Source of the DNA: Sporichthya polymorpha DSM 43042
GTDB taxonomy: Bacteria > Actinomycetota > Actinomycetes > Sporichthyales > Sporichthyaceae
DNA length: 64,000 nucleotides
Assembly: GCF_000384115.1 (NCBI RefSeq)
Contig: NZ_KB913029.1
Coordinates: 5,183,057 to 5,247,056, forward strand
Reading direction: 5' to 3'
Shown: in pieces, positions 2,229 through 39,199 of the stretch
Numbering within the stretch: the stretch's first letter is position 1
How the letters are laid out: each line of letters starts with the position of its first letter
Position numbers and translations under genes: made by a program
The notes under the pieces: model-generated
Seen by the model: only the letters and a program-made list of their open reading frames with translations
Database searches by the model: none
What the model was told of the DNA's origin: nothing

Positions 2229-4898
2229 TCAGTCCTCGTGCGCGAGCGTGATCGGACTCACCGGCGTCTCACCGGCGCCGGCGACGACCTCGGCCTCCGC
2301 GGGCGGGTAACCGACGGCGCGCACCGTGTAGGTGCCGGCCTCCAGGTCGGGAAACCGGTAGGCCCCGTCGGCGTCGGTGCGCGTGACCGCGACCTCGACG
2401 CCGCCGGAGAGCAGGCTGACCCGCGCGTCGGCGATCAGCCAGCCCTCGGGGGTCTGGGCGATGCCGGAGATCACGCCGCTGCCCCGGACCTCGACGTCGC
2501 GCTGGACCCGACCGCCGGGCGGGATCGTCACCGGCACGGCCACCGGCCGGGAGGCGGCGGCGAACACCGCGAGCGTCCCGTCGACGATCGTGAGATCGAC
2601 GAGTTCGTACGCGCCGGTCGCGTCGGTGCGGGTGCTGGCCGCGACCGCGCCGTCGAGGCTGGTCAGCGTCACCAGCGCGCCCTCGACGCCGCGGCCGGCC
2701 GCGTTGGTCACGACGCCGGAGAGCCGGGACGCCCCGGCGACCTCGACCTCGACCTCGACGCTCGGCGCGCCCGGGCCGGGCAGCAGCACGGTGCGGGCCT
2801 GCGGCAGGTAGCCCTCGTGCCGGACGACGAGCAGCACCTCGCCGGCGGCGAGCGACGGGAAGTCGGCGACGCCGGACGCGTCGGTCTCGCCCCGGGCCAC
2901 CTGACGGCCGCCCGGGTCGAGCAGCGTCACCCCGGCGTTGGCCACGCCGTCGGCCGGCGCCCCGGTCCCCCCGGCCCGTCGCACCCGCACCCGCAGGGCC
3001 GGTCCGGGACCCGGGGCGGGTGTCGTGGCCACGGCGTAGGTCGGCGTCGGCTGCGGCGTGGGAGCCGGGGGCGCGTAGGCCGGCGCCGGCACGGAGTGCG
3101 TCGCGCTCGTGACGACCGGAGCGGGCGCCGGGGGCACCAGCGGCGGTGTCGCAGGCGGCGCCGGGCGGTGGCCGTTGCCGTTGCCGTTCGCACCGTAGGA
3201 AGGGTCGGTCACGTCGCTCGCCTCCAGGAACACGGCGGGGATGGTAGCCCGGCCGGACGGCTGGGCGGGGAATTCGTGGCGAACGGTGGACGCCGGCACC
3301 GGGACCTCGCCCAGCCCGGGCTGGGCGGCGAGCCGGTGCACGTTGACCAGCAGCACGACCGCGAGCGCGGCCGCGGCGAGGATCAGTCCGGCGACCAGGC
3401 TCGCGCGGGCGTAGCCCTCGACCTGGGCGTCGATGAGGGTCTGCGGGTCGATCGACCGGCCCGACAGGTGGTCCGCGGTCCGGTTGGCGGCGACCGTCGA
3501 GAGCAGCGCGACGCCGAGGGACGCGCCGATCTGCTGGGTCGCGTTGACGACGGCGCCGGCGACCCCGGCGTCCCGCGGCGGGACGCCGTGCGTCGCGGCG
3601 TTGAACGCGGGCACGAACACCGCGCCCATCGCGACGCCCATAAGCATCAGGGGCGCGAGCAGGTCGGCGACGTAGCTGGAGTCGGCGCTGATCTGCGACA
3701 TCCAGATCAGCGCCAGGGCCGCGCCGACGAGACCGAGGCCCATCAGCAGACGCGGCGCGACCTTCGGCATCAGGCTGCTGATCACCGCCGAGGCGACGAT
3801 GACGCCCCCGGTGACCGGCAGGAACGCGACGCCGGTCCGCACCGGCGAGAACTCCAGCACGCCTTGCAGGTAGAAGGTCAGGAAGAAGAAGGCGCCGATC
3901 ATGCTCAGCGCGGCGAGAGTGATCGCGAGGTTCGACCCGCCGCGCGTCCGGTCGCCGAGGACACGCAGCGGCAGCAGCGGGTTGGTGACGAGCTGCTGAC
4001 TGAGGACGAACAGGATCAGCAGGCTCAGCCCGATGAACAGCAGCCAGAGCGTGCGGGTCTCGGTCCAGCCGTTCCGCTCGGCCTCGGAGAAGCTGTAGAC
4101 GACGGTGACCAGACCGCCGGTGGCGAGCACGGTGCCGATCAGGTCGAGCCGGCCCGGGTGCTCGCCGCTGAACTCGTCGAGGAACAGGTAAGCGCCGAGA
4201 ATCGACACCGCAGCCAGCGGGACGTTGACGTACATCGTCCAGCGCCAGTCGGCGTACTCGGTGAGGATGCCGCCCGCGATCAGCCCGACCGCGGATCCGC
4301 CGCCGGCGACGACGCCGAACACCGCGAAGGCCTTCGCCCGCTCCCGGATGTCGACGAACGTCGTGGAGACCAGCGCGAGGGCCGCCGGGGCGAGCAGCGC
4401 GCCGAACACGCCCTGGGCCGCGCGCGCGATCAGCAGGGTCTCCAGGTTCTGCGCGGCCCCGCCGAGGCCGGAGGCCACGGCGAAGCCGGCGAGCCCGATC
4501 ACCAGCGTCCGGCGCAGGCCGAGGTAGCCGGCGATCCGGCCGCAGAGCAGGAGCAGGCCGCCGAACGCCAGCGAGTAGGCGGTGATCACCCACTGCCGGT
4601 CGGCCGAGGCGAGCTCGAGGTCGGCGGAGAGGGCCGGCAGCGCGACGTTGACGATCGTGCCGTCGACGACGATCAGCAGCTGCGAGGACGCGAGGACGAG
4701 CAGGCCCAGCCAACGCCGCCGGTGCGCCTTCTGCTCCAGGCGCACGGCCTCCGCCGCCGGCGAGGTCGTCGAGGCACCGTTCGCCGACACCGCCCCGGGC
4801 ACGGGCTCGGCGTCGAGGCCGACCGGCACGCGGCGCGGTGGGACCGGCGGGAGGCCCCAGTCGCCCGTGGGGCGCTCCTCGTGCGAGCGCGACGCCAT
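2229..4898 (-). CDS. DHA2-type MFS exporter with three C-terminal Ig-like repeats
   Basis: 889-residue fusion. Residues about 60-518 form a 14-helix major facilitator of the DHA2 (EmrB/QacA) drug:H+ antiporter type, including the VVDGTIVNVALPAL first helix. A Pro/Gly/Asn-rich linker follows to about 630. Three carboxypeptidase-regulatory-like beta-sandwich repeats then start near residues 634, 721 and 804; each has the small-residue ...G.V....G..V.GA.VTL...DG......TDA.G.Y.F..L pattern. Ordinary DHA2 exporters are about 500 residues. With 14 helices the tail should be cytoplasmic, which is odd for a domain usually found outside cells. It lies 21 bases downstream of tetR on the same strand, so the regulator probably controls it as part of one operon. 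A paralogue with the same design lies at 5659-7914. The substrate is unknown. Confidence 0.88.
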   Translation of the reverse strand: MASRSHEERPTGDWGLPPVPPRRVPVGLDAEPVPGAVSANGASTTSPAAEAVRLEQKAHRRRWLGLLVLASSQLLIVVDGTIVNVALPALSADLELASADRQWVITAYSLAFGGLLLLCGRIAGYLGLRRTLVIGLAGFAVASGLGGAAQNLETLLIARAAQGVFGALLAPAALALVSTTFVDIRERAKAFAVFGVVAGGGSAVGLIAGGILTEYADWRWTMYVNVPLAAVSILGAYLFLDEFSGEHPGRLDLIGTVLATGGLVTVVYSFSEAERNGWTETRTLWLLFIGLSLLILFVLSQQLVTNPLLPLRVLGDRTRGGSNLAITLAALSMIGAFFFLTFYLQGVLEFSPVRTGVAFLPVTGGVIVASAVISSLMPKVAPRLLMGLGLVGAALALIWMSQISADSSYVADLLAPLMLMGVAMGAVFVPAFNAATHGVPPRDAGVAGAVVNATQQIGASLGVALLSTVAANRTADHLSGRSIDPQTLIDAQVEGYARASLVAGLILAAAALAVVLLVNVHRLAAQPGLGEVPVPASTVRHEFPAQPSGRATIPAVFLEASDVTDPSYGANGNGNGHRPAPPATPPLVPPAPAPVVTSATHSVPAPAYAPPAPTPQPTPTYAVATTPAPGPGPALRVRVRRAGGTGAPADGVANAGVTLLDPGGRQVARGETDASGVADFPSLAAGEVLLVVRHEGYLPQARTVLLPGPGAPSVEVEVEVAGASRLSGVVTNAAGRGVEGALVTLTSLDGAVAASTRTDATGAYELVDLTIVDGTLAVFAAASRPVAVPVTIPPGGRVQRDVEVRGSGVISGIAQTPEGWLIADARVSLLSGGVEVAVTRTDADGAYRFPDLEAGTYTVRAVGYPPAEAEVVAGAGETPVSPITLAHED

Positions 4899-4919
4899 GG
4901 TGGTGGTCCGCGGCGCGGG

Positions 4920-5540
4920 TCAGGCGCCCGGAGGCAGCGTGAAGGTCAGCAGGGGGATGAGGACGTTGTCGACCAACCGCGCCAGCACGTCGTCGTCGAC
5001 CGTCTCGCCGGTGAACAGCAGGCGCGTCAGGACGGTCGCGGTCGCGAGCTGGCGGATCAGATCGGCGTCCGGGTTGCGGATCGCTCCGCTCTCCGCGTAC
5101 CGGTTGAGCAGGGCCGCGGTGAGCGACTGGCACTGCTTGATGTCTGCGCGCATCAGCGCGGCCAGCTCCGGGTCGTGCTGCATCGCGGAGACCATCCCGG
5201 CGAGGAGCGCGCCCCGCTCCGTGAGCCCGTCCCGCAGGTCGCGCAGGAGCGTCAGCAGGTCCGTGCGCAGGTCCCCGGTGTAGGTGACGGAGAACGGCTC
5301 CTCGTTGAGGTGCCGGACGGCCGCGGTGACCAGCGCGGGCTTCCCGGGCCAGCGGCGGTAGATCGTCGCCTTGCTGGCGCGGGCGCGGGCGGCGACGGCG
5401 TCGATCGTGAGGCGCTCGTAACCGATCTCGGTGAGCAGCTCCGCGCAGACCGCGAGGATCTCCCGCTCGCGGGGCGTCACCGCGTCGTCGAGACAGCCGG
5501 CGGCGACCTGGGTGGTGGTCGCGGCGATCGTCGAAGTCAC
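4920..5540 (-). CDS. TetR-family transcriptional regulator of the exporter locus
   Basis: 206-residue TetR/AcrR regulator. An N-terminal three-helix DNA-binding domain occupies about residues 22-70, with the helix-turn-helix core TIDAVAARARASKATIYRRW. The C-terminal ligand-binding domain is long and resembles the TetR_C domains paired with MFS pumps, with paired Asp residues at TGETVDDDVL. The start is GTG at 5540. A -10 hexamer TACAGT lies only 6 bases before it (5547-5552), so the transcript may be leaderless. A dyad overlapping its own -35 position suggests autorepression. The MFS gene at 2229-4898 follows in the same direction. The same dyad at the same place in the promoter of the second MFS gene suggests that one regulator controls both exporters. 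Confidence 0.88.
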   Translation of the reverse strand: MTSTIAATTTQVAAGCLDDAVTPREREILAVCAELLTEIGYERLTIDAVAARARASKATIYRRWPGKPALVTAAVRHLNEEPFSVTYTGDLRTDLLTLLRDLRDGLTERGALLAGMVSAMQHDPELAALMRADIKQCQSLTAALLNRYAESGAIRNPDADLIRQLATATVLTRLLFTGETVDDDVLARLVDNVLIPLLTFTLPPGA

Positions 5541-5546
5541 CGAACC

Positions 5547-5577
5547 ACTGTAAGCGTCGTTGTGAACGCCTCCGTAC
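5547..5577 (-). promoter_or_regulatory. tetR promoter with overlapping operator-like dyad
   Basis: On the minus strand, the -10 box TACAGT (5552-5547) is preceded by a 17-base spacer and a -35 hexamer ACGGAG (5575-5570). The 14-mer GAACGCCTCCGTAC on the plus strand (5564-5577) covers the -35 box. It matches 12 of 14 positions of the perfect dyad at 7965-7978 in front of the second exporter. TetR-type operators are commonly dyads of this size. Assignment of this regulator to this site is inference. Confidence 0.6.
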
Positions 5578-5658
5578 CGAAGAGTCCAGCGCGCAGCAAA
5601 GGCTTACCTTCGCTCGGTCGGCCGCTGAGCCGAGCTCAGCGACCGGCCGGGGCGGAGC

Positions 5659-7914
5659 TCAGGAGGTGCTGAGCGGGTCCGAGACCGTGACGTCCTCGGG
5701 GTGCGCGAGCGTGATCGCGTCGACCTCGACCGGGGCGCCGCCCGGCCGCGGGCCCACCCGAACGGTCGCCGTCGAGGGCCCGTACCCGGTCGCGAGCAGC
5801 GTGTAGTCGCCCTCCGGCACCCCCGTGAAGGCGTACCGGCCCTGGGAGTCGGTCCGGGTCACGGCGCACTCGACGCCGTTGACGTCGATCAGACTGACGC
5901 GGGCGTCCGCGATCAGCCAGCCCTGCGGGGTCAGCGCCTCGCCGGTGATCAGCGTCGCGCGGATCGGGTCGGTGTTGAGCTGGACGTCCGCCTGCGCCGT
6001 GCCGCTCGCGGGCACCACGACCGGCTGCGCGAACGGCGCGTACGACGGGTGGATCGCGACCAGCAGCGCCTCACCGCCGGGCAGGTCGTTGAGCTCGCAC
6101 CGCCCGAGAACGTTGGTGTCGGCCACCGCGATCTGACGACCCGTCGCATCCAGCAGGCTGACGGCGACGCCCAGGAGCGGGCGACCGATCGCGTCGACGA
6201 CGCGGGTCGCGATGCGACCGGTCCCGAGCGCGACCGGCATCGGCACACCGTTCACCGGGTGCACGCCGATCGCCTGCTCCGCCTCGGCGACCGCGAAGGC
6301 GTCGCCGGTGCGGCCGGTGGCGTCGACGTGCGCCAGGTCGGCCTGCGGGTGCTCCTCGGGCGTGGGCTCGAAACCGTTGACGGCCTCGCCCCCGGGGGCG
6401 GGCTCGCCGTGTCCGTGGCTTGCCTTCTTCGCGTTCACGAGTACCAAGGTAAGGGCTGCGGCGATCAGCATGATGATCATCGCCCACAGGGTCGCGCGGG
6501 CGTAGCCCTCGACGTCGCCGTCGAGCAGGTTCGCCGCGGTCTCCTCCTTGCCGACGAGGAAGTCGGCCTTGCGGCTCGCCGCGACCGAGGACAGCAGCGC
6601 GAGGCCCAGCGACCCACCGACCTGCTGGGCGGTGTTGATCAGCGCGCTGGCGACACCGGCGTCCTGTGGCTGGACGCCCCAGGTCCCGACGTTGAAGGCC
6701 GGGACGAACACGCAGGTGATCGACAGACCCATGATCACCATGCCGGGGATCAGGTCGAGCAGGTAGCTGCTCTCGGCGTCGAGCCGGGTGAACAGCCCCA
6801 GGGAGATCGCCGTGCCGATCAGACCGCCGGCCATCAGGGCGCGCGGCGGGTAGCGGTGTGAGTAACGGGTCAGGAACTCCGAGGACGCGACGATGCACAG
6901 CGTCACCGGGAGGAAGGCCAGACCGGTCTTCAGCGCCGAGTACCCCAGGACCTCCTGGAAGTAGAAGCTCATGAAGAAGAACACGCCGAACAGGCCGATG
7001 ACCGTGAGCATCACGGCGAGGTTCGCGCCGGCCCGGTTGCGGTCGGCGAGCACGCGCAGTGGCAGCAGCGGGTGCGGGACGATCCGCTGGCTGACGATGA
7101 ACAGGATCAGCAGCGAGCCGCCGATGCCGAACAGCCACAGGGTGAACGGCTCGGTCCAGCCGGAGCGCTCGGCCTCGGAGAACCCGTAGACGAGGCTGAC
7201 CAGGCCACCGGTCGCGAGGACGGCGCCGATCCAGTCCAGCCGTCCGGCGAAGTCGGACTTGAACTCGTCGAGGAACTTGACCGTCCCCCACATCAGGACG
7301 ATCACGACGGGGACGTTGATGAGCATGGTCGCGCGCCAGCTGATCGCGTCGGTGAGCACACCGCCGACGACCAGACCGACCGCGGAGCCGGCACCGGCCA
7401 CGGTGCCGAAGAGGGAGAACGCCCGAATGCGTTCCATGGGGTCGGTGAAGGTGTTCGCGAGCAGCGCGAGCCCGGCCGGGGCCATCAGCGCGCCGAACAC
7501 GCCCTGCAGGGCGCGTGCGGTGAGCATCAGCTCGAAGTTGGGCGCGAAGCCCGCGAGGGCCGAGGCGACGCCGAAGCCGATGATGCCGATGAGGAACGTC
7601 CGCCGGAGCCCGAGGTAGTCGGCGATCCGGCCGCCGAGCATGAGCAGGCCGCCGAAGGCCAGCGCGTACGACGTGATGATCCACTGGCGGTCGGCCTCGG
7701 ACAGCTTGAGGTCGTCGCTCATCGCGGGCAGCGCGACGTTGACGACCGTGCCGTCGAGGACGATGAGCAGCTGGCAGCCGGTGATGACCAGCAGGCCGAG
7801 CCAGCGGCGGCGGGCGGCCGCAGCCGCCCGTTGTGGGTCGCCGGCGGCGGACTCCTCCGTCTCCGAAGGCTGCGGCGCGCCGGCGTCGGCCGGCGTGGAG
7901 GCGACAACCGCCAT
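5659..7914 (-). CDS. DHA2-type MFS exporter with two C-terminal Ig-like repeats
   Basis: 751-residue paralogue of the product at 2229-4898. The 14-helix DHA2 transporter core spans about residues 35-492. An acidic linker and two carboxypeptidase-regulatory-like beta-sandwich repeats follow, starting near residues 567 and 651. The last repeat shares the block TP(Q/E)GWLIADARVSL with the other exporter, followed in both by a TRTD.(Q/D)G.Y.F turn, so the fused tail was present before the duplication. The start ATG at 7914 has CAGGGAG about 7 bases upstream. A promoter with a TetR-like dyad lies upstream. tetR and the first exporter follow downstream on the same strand after a 118-base gap with its own promoter. 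The exported compound is unknown. Confidence 0.88.
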   Translation of the reverse strand: MAVVASTPADAGAPQPSETEESAAGDPQRAAAAARRRWLGLLVITGCQLLIVLDGTVVNVALPAMSDDLKLSEADRQWIITSYALAFGGLLMLGGRIADYLGLRRTFLIGIIGFGVASALAGFAPNFELMLTARALQGVFGALMAPAGLALLANTFTDPMERIRAFSLFGTVAGAGSAVGLVVGGVLTDAISWRATMLINVPVVIVLMWGTVKFLDEFKSDFAGRLDWIGAVLATGGLVSLVYGFSEAERSGWTEPFTLWLFGIGGSLLILFIVSQRIVPHPLLPLRVLADRNRAGANLAVMLTVIGLFGVFFFMSFYFQEVLGYSALKTGLAFLPVTLCIVASSEFLTRYSHRYPPRALMAGGLIGTAISLGLFTRLDAESSYLLDLIPGMVIMGLSITCVFVPAFNVGTWGVQPQDAGVASALINTAQQVGGSLGLALLSSVAASRKADFLVGKEETAANLLDGDVEGYARATLWAMIIMLIAAALTLVLVNAKKASHGHGEPAPGGEAVNGFEPTPEEHPQADLAHVDATGRTGDAFAVAEAEQAIGVHPVNGVPMPVALGTGRIATRVVDAIGRPLLGVAVSLLDATGRQIAVADTNVLGRCELNDLPGGEALLVAIHPSYAPFAQPVVVPASGTAQADVQLNTDPIRATLITGEALTPQGWLIADARVSLIDVNGVECAVTRTDSQGRYAFTGVPEGDYTLLATGYGPSTATVRVGPRPGGAPVEVDAITLAHPEDVTVSDPLSTS

Positions 7915-13114: not shown

Positions 13115-13201
13115 CCCCACTGAGCGACAGGGTTGCAACGGATGGGACGAGATTCCGCCGTCCCGACACCTCACGGGTTTCAACGTTGTCGCTCAGTGGG
13201 G
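13115..13201. repeat. 87-bp palindromic element, copy 1
   Basis: The 21-bp arms at 13115-13135 and 13181-13201 are inverted copies matching at 19 of 21 positions (outer sequence CCCCACTGAGCGACA). The centre holds a second inverted pair, GGGACG/CGTCCC (from 13144). An element of exactly the same length, with near-identical first 27 and last 35 bases but a different centre, lies at 18985-19071. It sits in the intergenic space after the QueA-like gene. Confidence 0.85.
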
Positions 13202-21440: not shown

Positions 21441-22367
21441 TCAGCGACCGAGGTCGGCGCGGCGGTCGGTGTAGGCGCGGCCGGCCTGCAGGCTGTTGCC
21501 GTACAGCGCAGACACCGTCACGAACGTGTAGCCGCGGTGGGCGAGCGAGCGCAGAATGCGCGGTACCGCTGCGACCGTCGTCCGGTGGATGTCGTGCAGC
21601 AGCACGATCGAGCCGGGCTTGGTCTGGCGCACGACGCTGCGGTGGACGCGGTCGGTGTTCTGGTAGCGCCAGTCGAGCGGGTCGACGTCCCAGAGGATGA
21701 TCGGCGCCTGCAGCCGGGCGAGCTCGCCGTTGACCCGGCGCGAGACCGACCCGTACGGCGGGCGGACCAGCGTCGGGCGGACCCCGATGACCTCGGCGAT
21801 GAGGTCGGCGGTGCGGGTGATCTGCCGGTCGACGTCCTTCTCGCGCAGCGCCGTCAGCTGCGGGTGCGACCAGGAGTGGTTGCCGATCTCGTGGCCGGCC
21901 GCCGCGATCGCGCGCAGGGCGTCCGGGTTGTCGATGACCATCTCGCCGAGCGGGAACCACGTCGCGACCGCGTTGTACTCCGCGAGCGCGGCGAGCACCT
22001 GGCTCGTCTGCGCGCCGGGGCCGTCGTCGAAGGTCAGCGCGACGCACTTGATCACGGCGCAGTCGACGTCCCCCGTCACCGCGGGCGCCGGGGCCACCTC
22101 GTCCGCCGGAGCCGGGGGCTGCAGCCCGAGCAGCCGCGCGCGCTCGGCGGCGAGCTGCGCACGGTCGCGGGCGCGGGCCTGCTCCTCGCTGAGGACGTCG
22201 GAGTCCTCGGCGGCGAGGTTCGAGGCGGACGCGACCGGCTTGGCCGCCGCCTCGTCCGACCCGGCCGTGCGTGCGACGACTACGACCGTCGCCGACAGGC
22301 AGAGTCCGAGCGCGACGATGCCGGCCACCGCGGCGATCCGCCGCCGGGCCGTACCTGCCTCGGTCAT
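21441..22367 (-). CDS. Polysaccharide deacetylase (NodB domain), membrane-anchored
   Basis: 308 residues from ATG 22367, preceded by AAGAAGG; an ATG 16 codons earlier is possible but lacks a ribosome binding site. A short basic N-terminus and one transmembrane or signal-anchor segment (RIAAVAGIVALGLCLSATVV) lead into a helical linker. The NodB catalytic domain then carries TFDDGP (metal/catalytic Asp pair), HEIGNHSWSHP, RPPYG, ILWDVDPLDW and IVLLHDIH, all five NodB motifs intact. It is predicted to remove acetyl groups from cell-wall or capsular amino sugars outside the membrane. The adjacent gene at 22483-23313 is a close paralogue. Confidence 0.9.
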   Translation of the reverse strand: MTEAGTARRRIAAVAGIVALGLCLSATVVVVARTAGSDEAAAKPVASASNLAAEDSDVLSEEQARARDRAQLAAERARLLGLQPPAPADEVAPAPAVTGDVDCAVIKCVALTFDDGPGAQTSQVLAALAEYNAVATWFPLGEMVIDNPDALRAIAAAGHEIGNHSWSHPQLTALREKDVDRQITRTADLIAEVIGVRPTLVRPPYGSVSRRVNGELARLQAPIILWDVDPLDWRYQNTDRVHRSVVRQTKPGSIVLLHDIHRTTVAAVPRILRSLAHRGYTFVTVSALYGNSLQAGRAYTDRRADLGR

Positions 22368-22395
22368 GCCTGCCTTCTTCCGTCCGAACGCGAGG

Positions 22396-22425
22396 ATCGT
22401 ACGGAATCGGGGCATACCGGGTAAA
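22396..22425 (-). promoter_or_regulatory. Possible promoter of the first deacetylase gene
   Basis: Minus-strand TTTACC (22425-22420), an 18-base spacer and TACGAT (22401-22396), about 30 bases upstream of the chosen start. Only the -10 box is a good match. This would give the gene a transcript separate from the upstream paralogue. Confidence 0.35.
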
Positions 22426-22482
22426 TCGGACAGCGCTGTGAAACTGAAGACGGTTCAGAAAAGCCCTGGTCAAGACCCTGGA

Positions 22483-23313
22483 TCAGGACACGGCGCGGTC
22501 GGTGTGCACCCGGCCCGCCCGCAGCGGGGCGTCGAACAGGTCGGAGACCCCGACGAACGTGTAGCCCTGCCCGGCGAGCGTGGCGAGAATCAGCGGCACC
22601 GCCGCGACCGTGCTCGCGTGGATGTCGTGCAGCAGCACGATCGACCCCGGCCGCACGACGTCGACGACGTTGCGATGGACGAGGTCGGCGTCGCGGTACT
22701 TCCAGTCGAGCGGGTCGACGTCCCAGAGCACGATCGGGGCACCGAGGTGCCCGAGCGCGACCCGCACCCGCGGCGAGATCGCGCCGTAGGGCGGACGCAC
22801 GAGTCGAGGACGCACGCCCGTCGCACGCTCGACCACGTCGGCGGTGCGGGTGATCTCCCCCGCCACCGCGAGGTTGCCCCGCCGCGGCAGCACCGGGTGG
22901 GACCAGGAGTGGTTGCCGATCTCGTGACCGGCGCGCGCGATCGCCCGCAGCCGTTCGGGATGCGCGGCGGCAACCTCCCCGATCGGGAACCACGTCGCGA
23001 CCGCATTCGCGCGCCGCAGCATCCGCAGCAGCGTCCGGGTCTGCGCCCCGGGCCCGTCGTCGAAGGTCAGCGCGACGCACTTCTGCACCGCACAGTCCGT
23101 GCGGGTGTGCGGCAGCAGCGGACGGGTCCGCTCGGTCTCCGCGGCGACGGGCGTCATCGTCTCCGCCGGTGCACTGGCGTGCCGCGCCCCCAGCGCGACC
23201 GCCACCGACAACCCCGCCACCAGTACCGGCGCGACGACGAGAGCGATTCCCCGCCCCCGCCGGCCCCCTGGACCGACCACAACGTCCCCCGAACGCCCCC
23301 ACCGGTCCGGCAT
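22483..23313 (-). CDS. Polysaccharide deacetylase (NodB domain), paralogue
   Basis: 276 residues with a short basic start, one signal-anchor segment (GIALVVAPVLVAGLSVAVAL) and a NodB domain with TFDDGP, HEIGNHSWSHP, RPPYG, VLWDVDPLDW and VLLHDIH. The catalytic domain is very close to that of the neighbour at 21441-22367 (both share ...KCVALTFDDGPGAQT and AVATWFP.GE), so this is a tandem duplication. The two differ mainly in the linker, which is shorter here and lacks the coiled-coil-like stretch. Predicted role is deacetylation of cell-surface glycans. The small HTH gene is divergent, with 153 bases between the starts. Confidence 0.88.
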   Translation of the reverse strand: MPDRWGRSGDVVVGPGGRRGRGIALVVAPVLVAGLSVAVALGARHASAPAETMTPVAAETERTRPLLPHTRTDCAVQKCVALTFDDGPGAQTRTLLRMLRRANAVATWFPIGEVAAAHPERLRAIARAGHEIGNHSWSHPVLPRRGNLAVAGEITRTADVVERATGVRPRLVRPPYGAISPRVRVALGHLGAPIVLWDVDPLDWKYRDADLVHRNVVDVVRPGSIVLLHDIHASTVAAVPLILATLAGQGYTFVGVSDLFDAPLRAGRVHTDRAVS

Positions 23314-23667: not shown

Positions 23668-23695
23668 CCAGCCAAAGAGATCTCGGCGGCCGACA

Positions 23696-23772
23696 CTGAG
23701 GCTGCAGATCGTTACAGCAGTGGCAATCGGGGCGCCTCACGACACTTCCCGTGTAACGAATTGCAGCTTCAG
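23696..23772. repeat. Imperfect palindromic element, copy 1 (GTTAC/GTAAC type)
   Basis: 20-base arms at 23696-23715 and 23753-23772 (right arm GTAACGAATTGCAGCTTCAG) pair as an inverted repeat with 3 mismatches. The right arm is identical to that of the element at 24007-24095. The bases to its right match the 3' end of the 90-residue gene, showing that this copy arose with the partial duplication. Confidence 0.7.
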
Positions 23773-23798
23773 CGTCCACGGACGGCATCGGCGGCCAG
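23769..23798 (-). pseudogene. 3' remnant of the 90-residue hypothetical gene
   Basis: Ten codons reading LAADAVRGR-stop, the exact C-terminus of the intact gene at 24085-24357, fused directly to the stop of a comEA fragment. The rest of the gene is missing from this copy. Confidence 0.7.
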
Positions 23799-23924
23799 TC
23801 ACACCCGAACGCGGTCCTTGAGGTCGGCGAAGGTGCTCGGGCCGATGCCCGGCACCTCTTGCAGTTCCTCGACCGAGGAGAAGCGGCCGTGCTCGGAGCG
23901 CCAGTCGAGGATCCGCTGGGCGAG
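23799..23924 (-). pseudogene. Duplicated 3' fragment of comEA
   Basis: About 126 bases nearly identical to 24400-24525, the last 41 codons and stop of comEA, with only two or three differences, all near the stop. It retains the second helix-hairpin-helix region (EVPGIGPSTFADLKDRV) but has no start and diverges abruptly at 23925. It is a recent partial duplication. The 80-odd bases from 23925 to 24006 hold nothing I recognise. Confidence 0.85.
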
Positions 23925-24006
23925 CACACGGACTCAGTTGTGACGGGTTGACCGGTGATTAGTCGCTGCGCGCGAGCCTGCCGACGATGCGGGCGCGCGG
24001 CCACAA

Positions 24007-24095
24007 GCGGACGCTGGAGCCGCAATTCGTTACTGGTGTGGGACGTGAATGCCCCACGCGGCACCCGCGTAACGAATTGCAGCTTCAGCGCCCGC
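24007..24095. repeat. Imperfect palindromic element, copy 2 (GTTAC/GTAAC type)
   Basis: 27-base arms at 24007-24033 and 24069-24095 pair with 3 mismatches, and a small inner stem GTGGG/CCCAC lies between them. The right arm overlaps the last codons and stop of the 90-residue gene. Copy 1 is at 23696-23772. The position just after a stop codon could mean a terminator role on the minus strand. Confidence 0.75.
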
Positions 24096-24357
24096 GAACG
24101 GCATCGGCAGCCAGGCGCAGGTCGCGAAAGTCCTCTACCGCCAGCCGGGCCATGCGGACGAATGTCGCGAGGTTCCCTTGCGCCACCACGAAGATGTCAT
24201 CCACCACCTCATCGGGCGGTGTGATCTCGTTGTAGCAGTCGTGCCAGGCGAACTCGGTCAGCTCCAACACGTCGAGCGCGACGTCAGCGTCTCGGCCGAA
24301 CTCAGCACGCGCTCGTTCACTACGTAAGGCGCGCCTGTCGGCTCGACTGATAGCCAC
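24085..24357 (-). CDS. Hypothetical protein, 90 residues
   Basis: Start GTG 24357; no good ribosome binding site. The product is acidic in its middle and helical at the end: ELTEFAWHDCYNEITPPDEV, then FVRMARLAVEDFRDLRLAAD. No domain was recognised. The WHDCYNEITPP segment looks like a conserved core and would be the best search query. The gene follows comEA on the same strand after 42 bases. Its 3' end, including the stop, lies in a palindromic element, and a truncated copy of its last codons is found at 23769-23798. The neighbourhood has been rearranged, so it may be an accessory gene. Confidence 0.6.
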   Translation of the reverse strand: MAISRADRRALRSERARAEFGRDADVALDVLELTEFAWHDCYNEITPPDEVVDDIFVVAQGNLATFVRMARLAVEDFRDLRLAADAVRGR

Positions 24358-24399
24358 GACGTCAGCGTCCCACGTCCTGCTGCGACGGCCGACAGACGC

Positions 24400-25155
24400 T
24401 CATACCCGGACGCGGTCCTTGAGGTCGGCGAAGGTGCTCGGGCCGATGCCCGGCACCTCTTGCAGTTCCTCGACCGAGGAGAAGCGGCCGTGCTCGGAGC
24501 GCCAGTCGAGGATCCGCTGGGCGAGGACGGGGCCGACGCCGGGGAGGCTGTCGAGGTCGGCGAGGGTCGCGGTGTTGAGGTTCACCAGGCCGTCGGAGCC
24601 GATGCCCGCGGCTCCCCCGGCTCCCCCGGGATCGAGGACGATCTGCTCGCCGTCGGTCAGGAGTTGGGCGAGGTTGAGCGAGGTCGTCCCGACGCCGGGG
24701 CGGGGGCCGCCGGCGGCGGTGAGCGCGTCGAGCACCCGCGACCCGGCGGGCAACTGCACGACCCCGGGCCGGCGCACCTTGCCCTGGACGTCGACGACGA
24801 TGCTCGGCGGCGCGAGGCCGGGAGCGGCCGAGACCCCCGGCACCGGCGAGCCGGGAGCGACCAGCGCCGCGGGCCCGACGTCCTCGACGTGCGGCCGCGA
24901 GCGCAGGACGACGGCCCCGGCGATCACCACTCCCCCGAGCGCGATCACGAGCAGCGCCCCGACCGCCCGCCGGTCGAGGCCGATCCGGACCCGGCCGATT
25001 GCGGATCCGTCGTCGGCGGGATCCGAGTCGGCGGAGTCCGGGTCCGCGGCGTCGACAGCCACCGGCCCCGGGCCGACCGCGAAGAGGTCCCGCAGCCGGA
25101 GCTCCGCGCGTGCCCGGGCCTCGGCGACGCGACCCGACCCCGCACGCAGACCCAC
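24400..25155 (-). CDS. comEA: ComEA-type DNA-binding protein (SLBB plus helix-hairpin-helix)
   Basis: 251 residues from GTG 25155; the frame stays open to a TTG at 25215, without a ribosome binding site. Charged N-terminus, one membrane anchor near residues 64-83, a SLBB-like beta domain about 117-170 (VVDVQGKVRRPGVVQLPAGS) and two helix-hairpin-helix motifs at 188-251 (LPGVGPVLAQRI and VPGIGPSTFADL). ComEA is the membrane-bound receptor that hands double-stranded DNA to ComEC, which is encoded about 3 kb downstream in the same direction. The two deacetylases, the HTH gene and the duplicated region have come between the two competence genes, which are usually adjacent in actinobacteria. Confidence 0.9.
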   Translation of the reverse strand: MGLRAGSGRVAEARARAELRLRDLFAVGPGPVAVDAADPDSADSDPADDGSAIGRVRIGLDRRAVGALLVIALGGVVIAGAVVLRSRPHVEDVGPAALVAPGSPVPGVSAAPGLAPPSIVVDVQGKVRRPGVVQLPAGSRVLDALTAAGGPRPGVGTTSLNLAQLLTDGEQIVLDPGGAGGAAGIGSDGLVNLNTATLADLDSLPGVGPVLAQRILDWRSEHGRFSSVEELQEVPGIGPSTFADLKDRVRV

Positions 25156-25243
25156 GCCCGGACGGTAGACGGCTTCGCCGCCTCGCGGGCCACACAGGCG
25201 CGGACCTGTGGACAACGTCGACCGTGCGGCGCCTGTGGAAAAG

Positions 25244-25287
25244 AAAGGGTGACACCCCTTACTGCGGAGTAAGGGGTGTCACCCTTT
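25244..25287. terminator. 20-bp perfect inverted repeat between leuS and comEA
   Basis: Perfect 20-bp stem (25244-25263 with 25268-25287), loop GCGG, followed on the plus strand by TT and preceded by an A-rich run, so T-rich tails exist on both strands. It lies 15 bases after the leuS stop and is the likely leuS terminator. Each arm is itself a copy of the GGGTG-W-CACCC palindrome found at three other places in the window. Confidence 0.85.
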
Positions 25288-25301
25288 TTCGACAGCGGCG
25301 G

Positions 25302-38142: not shown

Positions 38143-39120
38143 ATGCGACTCCTGGTGCTCGGCGGGACGCGGTTCGTCGGGCGCGCGCTCGTGGACGACG
38201 CGCTGACGCGGGGCTGGGACGTCACCGCGGTGCACCGGGGGCTGACCGGTGCCCTGCCCGCCGGGGTCCGTGTCCGGATTGCGGACCGGACCGATGCGGC
38301 TGCCCTCGCGGAAGCCCTGGGCGGACAGACCTGGGACGCCGTCGTCGACACCTGGGCGGGGGCGCCGGCCGTGGCCCGGCTGTCCGCGCGCCTGCTCCGG
38401 GGCCGCGTGGGGCGGCTCGGGTACGTCTCGTCGCTGTCGGTGTACGTGTGGGGCACGCACGCAAACGAGTCCTCGCCGGTGGTCGAGGGCGACCCGACCG
38501 CCGCCGACGGCGACTACGCCGCGATCAAGCGCGGGGCCGAGCTCGCCCTGCTGGAGTCCTTCCCGGACGCCGTCCTGGCCCGTGCGGGGCTGATCCTGGG
38601 CCCGCACGAGGACATCGGCCGCCTGCCCTGGTGGCTGGACCGGATCGCCCGCGGCGGCCCCGTGGTGGCCCCGGGACGGCCCGACCGACCCCTGCAGTAC
38701 GTCGACGCCCGTGATCTGGCCCGTTGGCTGCTGGACGGCGTCGCGGGCGATCTCGCGGGCCCCGTGGACGTCGTCAGCCGCTCCGGGCACGCGACGACCG
38801 CCGACCTGCTGCAGGCCTGCGTGGACGTGACCGGTTCCGCCGCCCGGCTGGTCTGGGTCGACGAAGACCGCCTCGCCGCCGCCGGCGCGCAACCGTGGAC
38901 CCATCTGCCCTGCTGGGTCCCGGAGACCGGCGAGTTCGCCGGGTTCCTGGAGTCCGACACCTTCCTGGCCGCCGCGACCGGCCTGGTCTGCCGCCCGGTC
39001 CGGGACACCGTCGCCGACACCTGGGCCTGGCTCCGGTCCGACGGCCGGCCGTCCCAGCGCCCCGACCGTCCCGTCCACGGCCTCCCGGCCGAGATCGAGG
39101 CCCAGCTCCTCGCGGGATGA
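38143..39120 (+). CDS. NAD-dependent epimerase/dehydratase (extended SDR)
   Basis: 325 residues. The Rossmann motif LGGTRFVGRAL at the N-terminus is the GxxxxxG form of extended or atypical SDRs. An acidic residue and basic residues follow, with YVSSLSVY and the DYAAIKRGAE segment holding the likely active Tyr and Lys. The C-terminal substrate domain is normal in length. The family has many substrates (nucleotide sugars, flavonoid-like reductases, isoflavone-type); nothing here selects one. Start ATG 38143. The stop codon lies inside the left arm of a nested inverted repeat, and it converges with proA. No nearby gene suggests a pathway. Confidence 0.82.
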   Translation: MRLLVLGGTRFVGRALVDDALTRGWDVTAVHRGLTGALPAGVRVRIADRTDAAALAEALGGQTWDAVVDTWAGAPAVARLSARLLRGRVGRLGYVSSLSVYVWGTHANESSPVVEGDPTAADGDYAAIKRGAELALLESFPDAVLARAGLILGPHEDIGRLPWWLDRIARGGPVVAPGRPDRPLQYVDARDLARWLLDGVAGDLAGPVDVVSRSGHATTADLLQACVDVTGSAARLVWVDEDRLAAAGAQPWTHLPCWVPETGEFAGFLESDTFLAAATGLVCRPVRDTVADTWAWLRSDGRPSQRPDRPVHGLPAEIEAQLLAG

Positions 39121-39189
39121 CGTCCCGCAGACCTCCCGTGTCGGCCCACACAAGGGCCGACACCCCACCGCTGCGGGACGTCATCCCGC
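39112..39189. terminator. Nested inverted repeats between epimerase and proA
   Basis: Outer perfect 19-bp arms (39112-39130 and 39171-39189; arm core GCGGGATGACGTCCCGC is itself a hairpin). Inner perfect 10-bp arms at 39138-39147 and 39154-39163 (GTGTCGGCCC). The outer left arm contains the epimerase stop codon, and the right arm ends 10 bases from the proA stop. It can form one long stem with a branched top, or two flanking hairpins plus the inner one. Probable bidirectional terminator, unusually elaborate. Confidence 0.8.
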
Positions 39190-39199
39190 AGGGGTCCGG

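Follow-up and report, generated by a model that had tools for sequence, protein, structure and literature searches.

Dispersed palindromes whose origin is unknown are present in many bacterial genomes; to our knowledge, the enzyme put forward as mobilising them has until now been RAYT, in the case of the REPs. Other long palindromic repeats, such as the Rickettsia palindromic elements and similar sequences, are scattered in one lineage and spread by an unknown mechanism, and HEARO/IscB elements, in a mobile setting, link a conserved nucleic-acid structure with a nuclease gene. In AbiE systems, the AbiEi protein autoregulates. For the REPs, RAYT genes are always flanked by two of these repeats, an arrangement called the REPtron (Nunvar et al., 2010; PMC2817692).

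Here we describe a family of palindromes (PALs) from an actinobacterial lineage, together with a unit in which one gene lies between two of them (PAL-gene-PAL). The likeness to the REP/RAYT system (PMC2817692) lies in the scattered intergenic palindromes, the several subfamilies per genome and the single enzyme gene between two copies. Unlike that system, the enzyme of the PAL unit is a Vsr/DUF559-type nuclease and not Y1, the PALs measure about 87 bp with a fixed core spacing (20-40 bp for REPs), they number about 20 copies (hundreds for REPs) and they have no conserved tetranucleotide head such as GTAG. With Vsr-like homing endonucleases, such as I-Bth0305I (PDB 3r3p), the protein shares the nuclease fold and conserved acidic residues, and its gene likewise appears to behave as a free-standing selfish gene; it is, however, not located in an intron or intein, it is bracketed by palindromes and it has an AbiEi-like N-terminus. 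This N-terminal region recalls the AbiE type IV toxin-antitoxin systems (AbiEi/AbiEii), from which the unit differs by having no AbiEii gene, an extra C-terminal nuclease and flanking palindromes. Although long and lineage-scattered like the Rickettsia palindromic elements, PALs have a candidate enzyme gene between two copies. Finally, the PAL unit and HEARO/IscB both combine a structure with a nuclease gene, but the nuclease is different, palindromes stand on both sides and there are many solo copies. No Rfam family matched within the window, and a known RNA family was rejected for that reason.

A dispersed palindrome family with a fixed core

The window analyzed, a stretch of 64,000 nucleotides from Sporichthya polymorpha DSM 43042, contains two palindromes, P1 and P2 (Table 1), each of exactly 87 bp, and the ends that a first-pass annotation had reported as shared agree at 26 of the first 27 and 31 of the last 35 bases. 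P2 provides the stop codon of comEC. Single-strand folding of both copies was compared with dinucleotide shuffles, giving z = -6.7 for P1 and -7.4 for P2 with 0 of 200 shuffles as good, and three Markov randomisations of the window produced no symmetric palindrome as strong as either one.

Table 1. Positions of palindromes, core motifs and duplications in the window
Feature	Position	Strand	Description
PAL copy P1	13115..13201	.	type A arm, solo, downstream of queA
PAL copy P2	18985..19071	.	type A arm, solo, between holA and comEC
Core motif GTTGCAAC, P1 left arm	13132..13139	.	mirror GTTTCAAC at 13177-13184
Core motif pair in P2	19002-19009 and 19047-19054
PAL, third arm type (C)	24007..24095	.	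arm GCTGCAATTCGTTAC, solo
PAL, arm type C, second copy	23689..23779	.	more decayed
Palindrome family E, solo copy	25236..25296	.	centre about 25266; boundaries approximate
comEA 3'-end duplication	23689-24528
First tandem gene duplication	3396-7648		spacing 3091 bp
Second tandem gene duplication	21441-23313		spacing 1033 bp

Rather than an isolated pair with ends absent from relatives, P1 and P2 belong to a dispersed, structured, intergenic family, as the general part of the earlier REP- or MITE-like interpretation had it. Using BLAST and a covariance model, we found 21 motif-matched copies in the 5.5-Mb genome to which the window belongs (G000), consisting of 12 strong copies with the outer arm of P1 and P2 (type A) and about 9 with the arm GTGGACGAGTTGMAAC (type B), and copy numbers are about 20 per genome. 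The family was found in all five genomes of the same taxonomic family (two genera), which include the sister species (G001) and G002, G003 and G004. Among 143 genomes that represent the remaining orders of the class, none gave a PAL match at E <= 1e-6, and the core pattern had no match in 84,980 species genomes, a set that may not cover G000 and its close relatives. Transmission by phages or plasmids was rejected, as the core pattern was missing from viral contigs and BLAST matched neither P1 in plasmids nor P2 in phages. Along the chromosome, PALs presented no position bias (KS p = 0.20).

The outer arms vary with subfamily and species and GTTGMAAC is kept, often followed by NNN-TGAGGCG; the core motifs GTTGCAAC and GTTTCAAC are invariant or nearly so across all subfamilies. 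A search with the pattern GTTGMAASN{22,52}STTKCAAC returned 42 sites, one of which, in G004, may be due to chance, with lengths of 51 nt (1 site), 52 nt (12) and 53 nt (29). As all 42 sites measured 51-53 nt although total lengths of 38-68 were permitted, the distance between the outer edges of the two core motifs is fixed. The reversed pattern, used as a control, gave five sites in G002, against only three true matches in that genome, and no site in the other four genomes. The same spacing holds in type B copies, in which the inner hairpins are off-centre.

The centre hairpins described earlier, GGGACG/CGTCCC in P1 and GGGAGT/ACTCCC in P2, are both present, but their positions differ between copies (about 30-35/45-50 in P1 versus 26-31/33-38 in P2) and they are therefore not compensatory versions of one helix. 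As for compensatory change in general, 84.5% of the cells pair in 16 type-A copies from the own and sister genomes, against 81.4% after shuffling, and two-sided changes occupy 36 cells (23.4 after shuffling), a number reached in 1 of 500 shuffles and inflated by relatedness. In a set of 73 copies, self-specificity is strong in the outer arms, with 19.2 of 25 positions pairing with their own partner and 14.1 with the partners of other copies, whereas the inner region scores only 8.1 versus 7.4 of 17. The suggestion of compensation is thus partly supported: it is real, yet weak in the centre. Copies from G000 and G002 located in the same gap had centres no more similar than random pairs.

Other palindromes and duplications

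The window has long palindromes in addition to P1 and P2 that were not listed in the first-pass annotation. The type C arm, related to that of P1 and P2, was also found in G002, where a PAL stands after comEA. Family E (AAAGGGTGACACCCCTTACTGC...) has 14 copies in 1.2 Mb of own-genome sequence and dozens in G001; L146 and L215 are among its own-genome locations. Additional dispersed palindrome families (GCGGGATGACGTCCCGCAG..., GTAACGTCAGCGGGATCG..., GGAGATGACATCTCC...) were observed at window positions 39107-39194 and about 17910 as well as at L147:13376 and L203:11897. A second copy of the final 129 bp of comEA (126/129 identical) lies 601 bp away, and a 90-aa ORF and a type C palindrome stand between the two 3'-end copies; the whole block is missing from G001 and appears to be a recent insertion by which the 3' end of the gene was restored. 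The two tandem gene duplications of the window are about 72-78% identical in blocks, and the second pair, judged by eye, resembles polysaccharide-deacetylase paralogues.

Elsewhere in the genome, at L028 (G000:C1:3429810-3431196), two PALs that are identical over 78 nt enclose a 214-aa orphan gene together with a gene for a small lipoprotein, and the counterpart in G001 has one PAL and neither gene. Comparing L032 with L124, a PAL in G000 is matched in G001 by about 720 bp of other sequence, which on visual inspection resembles a HigBA-type toxin-antitoxin pair. An identical type-B PAL with partly identical flanks was found at L102 and L103 (G000:C1:150763 and 404443) beside tRNA-like sequence, and these are possibly the ends of an integrated element.

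A nuclease-like gene between two palindromes

At one site, G000 carries PAL-gene-PAL and the sister species G001 a single solo PAL. The same gene was found between two PALs at an unrelated place in G002, and the inter-PAL distance is about 940 bp in both units; the gene copy of the G000 unit has a frameshift. A protein search of the sampled loci identified eight loci with the gene in G000, G002, G003 and G004 (two genera), and seven of the eight were enclosed by two PALs (989-1071 bp from centre to centre), although loci beyond the contiguous sample had been picked for their PALs, so that the unbiased evidence is a 1.2-Mb contiguous sample of the own genome. That sample contains only two genes of this kind, and both are flanked by palindromes, of unrelated families. 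One is the gene of the G000 unit, and the other, at locus L215, is a Vsr-like nuclease gene bracketed by family E copies (54 nt, 96% identical). At L040, a PAL was present on one side only and a second palindrome was not found.

The space between the PALs of a unit accommodates only one gene of about 0.9 kb, the stop codon of which typically adjoins the downstream PAL. The arms of the two PALs of one unit are more alike than the average of other units, and the outer-arm type is usually common to both. Solo PALs are far commoner than units. The search for an associated enzyme gene, recommended in the earlier description, was thus successful, but the gene encodes a Vsr/homing-endonuclease-like nuclease and not a known transposase.

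The unit protein has about 280 aa and a mean column identity of 67% across six copies, in which residues D211, E221, D223 and H228 are invariant. With Pfam, DUF559 was over the cut-off in several copies, and REase_MTES_1575 and AbiEi_4 were below it. In published work (PMC3710099), MTES_1575 is classed as a Vsr-type REase domain. An AlphaFold2 model of moderate confidence (mean pLDDT 73.7) had as its best Foldseek match the catalytic domain of the homing endonuclease I-Bth0305I (3r3p; probability 1.00, TM by target 0.75, E 2.5e-3), followed by 3hrl and Vsr, and a sequence profile also picked 3hrl (E 2.6e-4). The protein is predicted to consist of an AbiEi-like winged-helix N-terminus and a C-terminal DUF559/Vsr-like nuclease domain. 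Viral contigs searched with the nuclease alignment gave no match.

Homologues outside the family

Homologues from other lineages were chosen by protein similarity or from arbitrary stretches, disregarding palindromes, and their flanks were then checked. In G007, which belongs to another family, 72-nt palindromic repeats stand on both sides (three copies, 89-96% identical). The homologue on a plasmid of Actinomyces oris stands between 171-nt repeats (87%) that have inverted arms of 22 nt. In Tsukamurella tyrosinosolvens, a 41-nt palindrome precedes the start and recurs 23 bp after the stop, and its other copies in the same strain are under no listed gene; a second, degraded gene of this species lies between 72-nt inverted repeats. 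The fecal contig MT837367 is a partial case, with a hairpin after the stop and its arm repeated upstream. All these flanking palindromes are unrelated in sequence to the PALs. No such flanking repeats were found around a true AbiE operon (L244, with an AbiEii gene), analyzed as a control, or around a 56-aa match in Nonomuraea (L243).

Palindrome placement and alternative explanations

These arrangements, a RAYT-like architecture with another enzyme in a family whose five genomes have no Y1 gene, suggest a REPtron-like reading. It is probable, judging from sequence comparisons, that the 87-bp PALs form the two ends of a small mobile PAL-gene-PAL unit of about 1.1 kb in which a Vsr-like nuclease would replace Y1, solo PALs being gene-less copies or remnants.

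The main rival is that PALs are host-functional 3'-end hairpins under selection, either bidirectional terminators or mRNA-stability elements, on which the nuclease gene landed as a passenger. According to a simple gene caller, convergent genes flank 33 of 78 copies, a twofold excess (expectation approximately 17; p about 5e-5), and the closest stop codon is often at 30 bp or less. Both observations fit this explanation, as do the very stable stems. Moreover, PAL positions are common to several species or genera with differing arms: the sister species G001 has neither P1 nor P2, but the P1 gap of G002 and the P2 gap of G002 and G003 hold PALs with other arms, and other positions behave alike, including the 3' end of an LLM-oxidoreductase gene in G001, G002 and G003. 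A right-arm remnant that remains at one site in G001 indicates a deletion there. Shared positions of this kind would also be expected of old elements retained by the host, and old copies could have a host role. On the other hand, the low copy number, the 10 of 78 copies between divergent genes (same gene caller) and the lack of a T-run after P1 or P2 argue against host hairpins; a terminator needs neither a fixed 51-53-nt spacing nor species-specific arms, and homologous nucleases elsewhere are bracketed by unrelated palindromes. We regard this explanation as unlikely.

Alternatively, the palindromes could be operators or attenuators through which an AbiEi-like protein controls its own gene, the scattered copies being other targets or having been spread by something else. 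Inverted repeats at a fixed spacing would suit a dimeric DNA-binding protein and the N-terminus is AbiEi-like, but a matching palindrome also after the stop codon is unexpected for an operator, no AbiEii partner lies between the PALs and the scattered copies are mainly at 3' ends. This reading is improbable. The AbiEii toxin gene that stands beside the AbiEi gene in AbiE toxin-antitoxin systems is absent from the units, in contrast to L244.

Intergenic palindromes that are dispersed and have long inverted repeats would equally be expected of REP/RAYT repeats of the ordinary kind, or of MITEs belonging to a DDE insertion sequence. The RAYT/Y1 transposase gene expected for REPs proper (Y1_Tnp, PF01797) was found in 0 of 5 genomes, compared with 5 of the 14 genomes used as controls, and for this reason RAYT/REP was rejected. 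For MITEs, no consistent target-site duplication was seen at solo or unit boundaries, and no larger insertion sequence with split PAL-type arms was among the matches, short arms being hard to detect. Both possibilities appear very remote. Least probable of all are integron-like attC sites collecting gene cassettes, rejected despite gene-plus-PAL units inserted beside PALs and a PAL directly after the stop codon, as the genome has no integron integrase over the curated cut-off (TIGR02249), the PALs have no GTTRRRY ends and the sites are mostly single and scattered.

A proposed mobile element and its significance

Returning to the mobile PAL-gene-PAL unit, each protein would recognize its own arm type together with the conserved GTTGMAAC-NNN-TGAGGCG core, and the nuclease would cut at or near the palindrome or an empty site. 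Repair of the break could then copy a PAL or PAL-gene-PAL into the cut, a homing- or REPtron-like spread, and recombination between the two PALs of a unit could leave a solo PAL, as in solo LTR formation. P1 and P2 would be such solo copies, either gene-less or remnants. PALs mostly follow a stop codon closely, probably because such places tolerate insertion, and they may serve there as strong 3' hairpins. Mobility and cleavage by the unit nuclease are what we infer from these patterns. Several observations count against this reading: the shared PAL positions, the two other genes between near-identical PALs at L028, the one-sided PAL at L040, the Nonomuraea match lacking palindromes, the frameshift in the G000 unit, the lack of a target-site duplication, the moderate confidence of the protein model and the E-value of its best fold match.

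Related genes bracketed by palindromes in other actinobacteria point to what may be an undescribed kind of small selfish DNA element. The chances seem evenly balanced that this is a widespread, undescribed class of actinobacterial mobile elements, in which a Vsr/homing-endonuclease-like gene with lineage-specific palindromes would seed solo palindromes by nuclease-driven break and copy, and several palindrome families per genome would each have their own nuclease. The literature naming DUF559 or MTES_1575, of which coverage was incomplete, does not describe this arrangement. If movement is shown, these units would constitute a new class. They offer a concrete candidate enzyme, of a class other than RAYT, for several palindrome families together, and suggest a role for a protein family annotated as of "unknown function", DUF559 with an AbiEi-like N-terminus.
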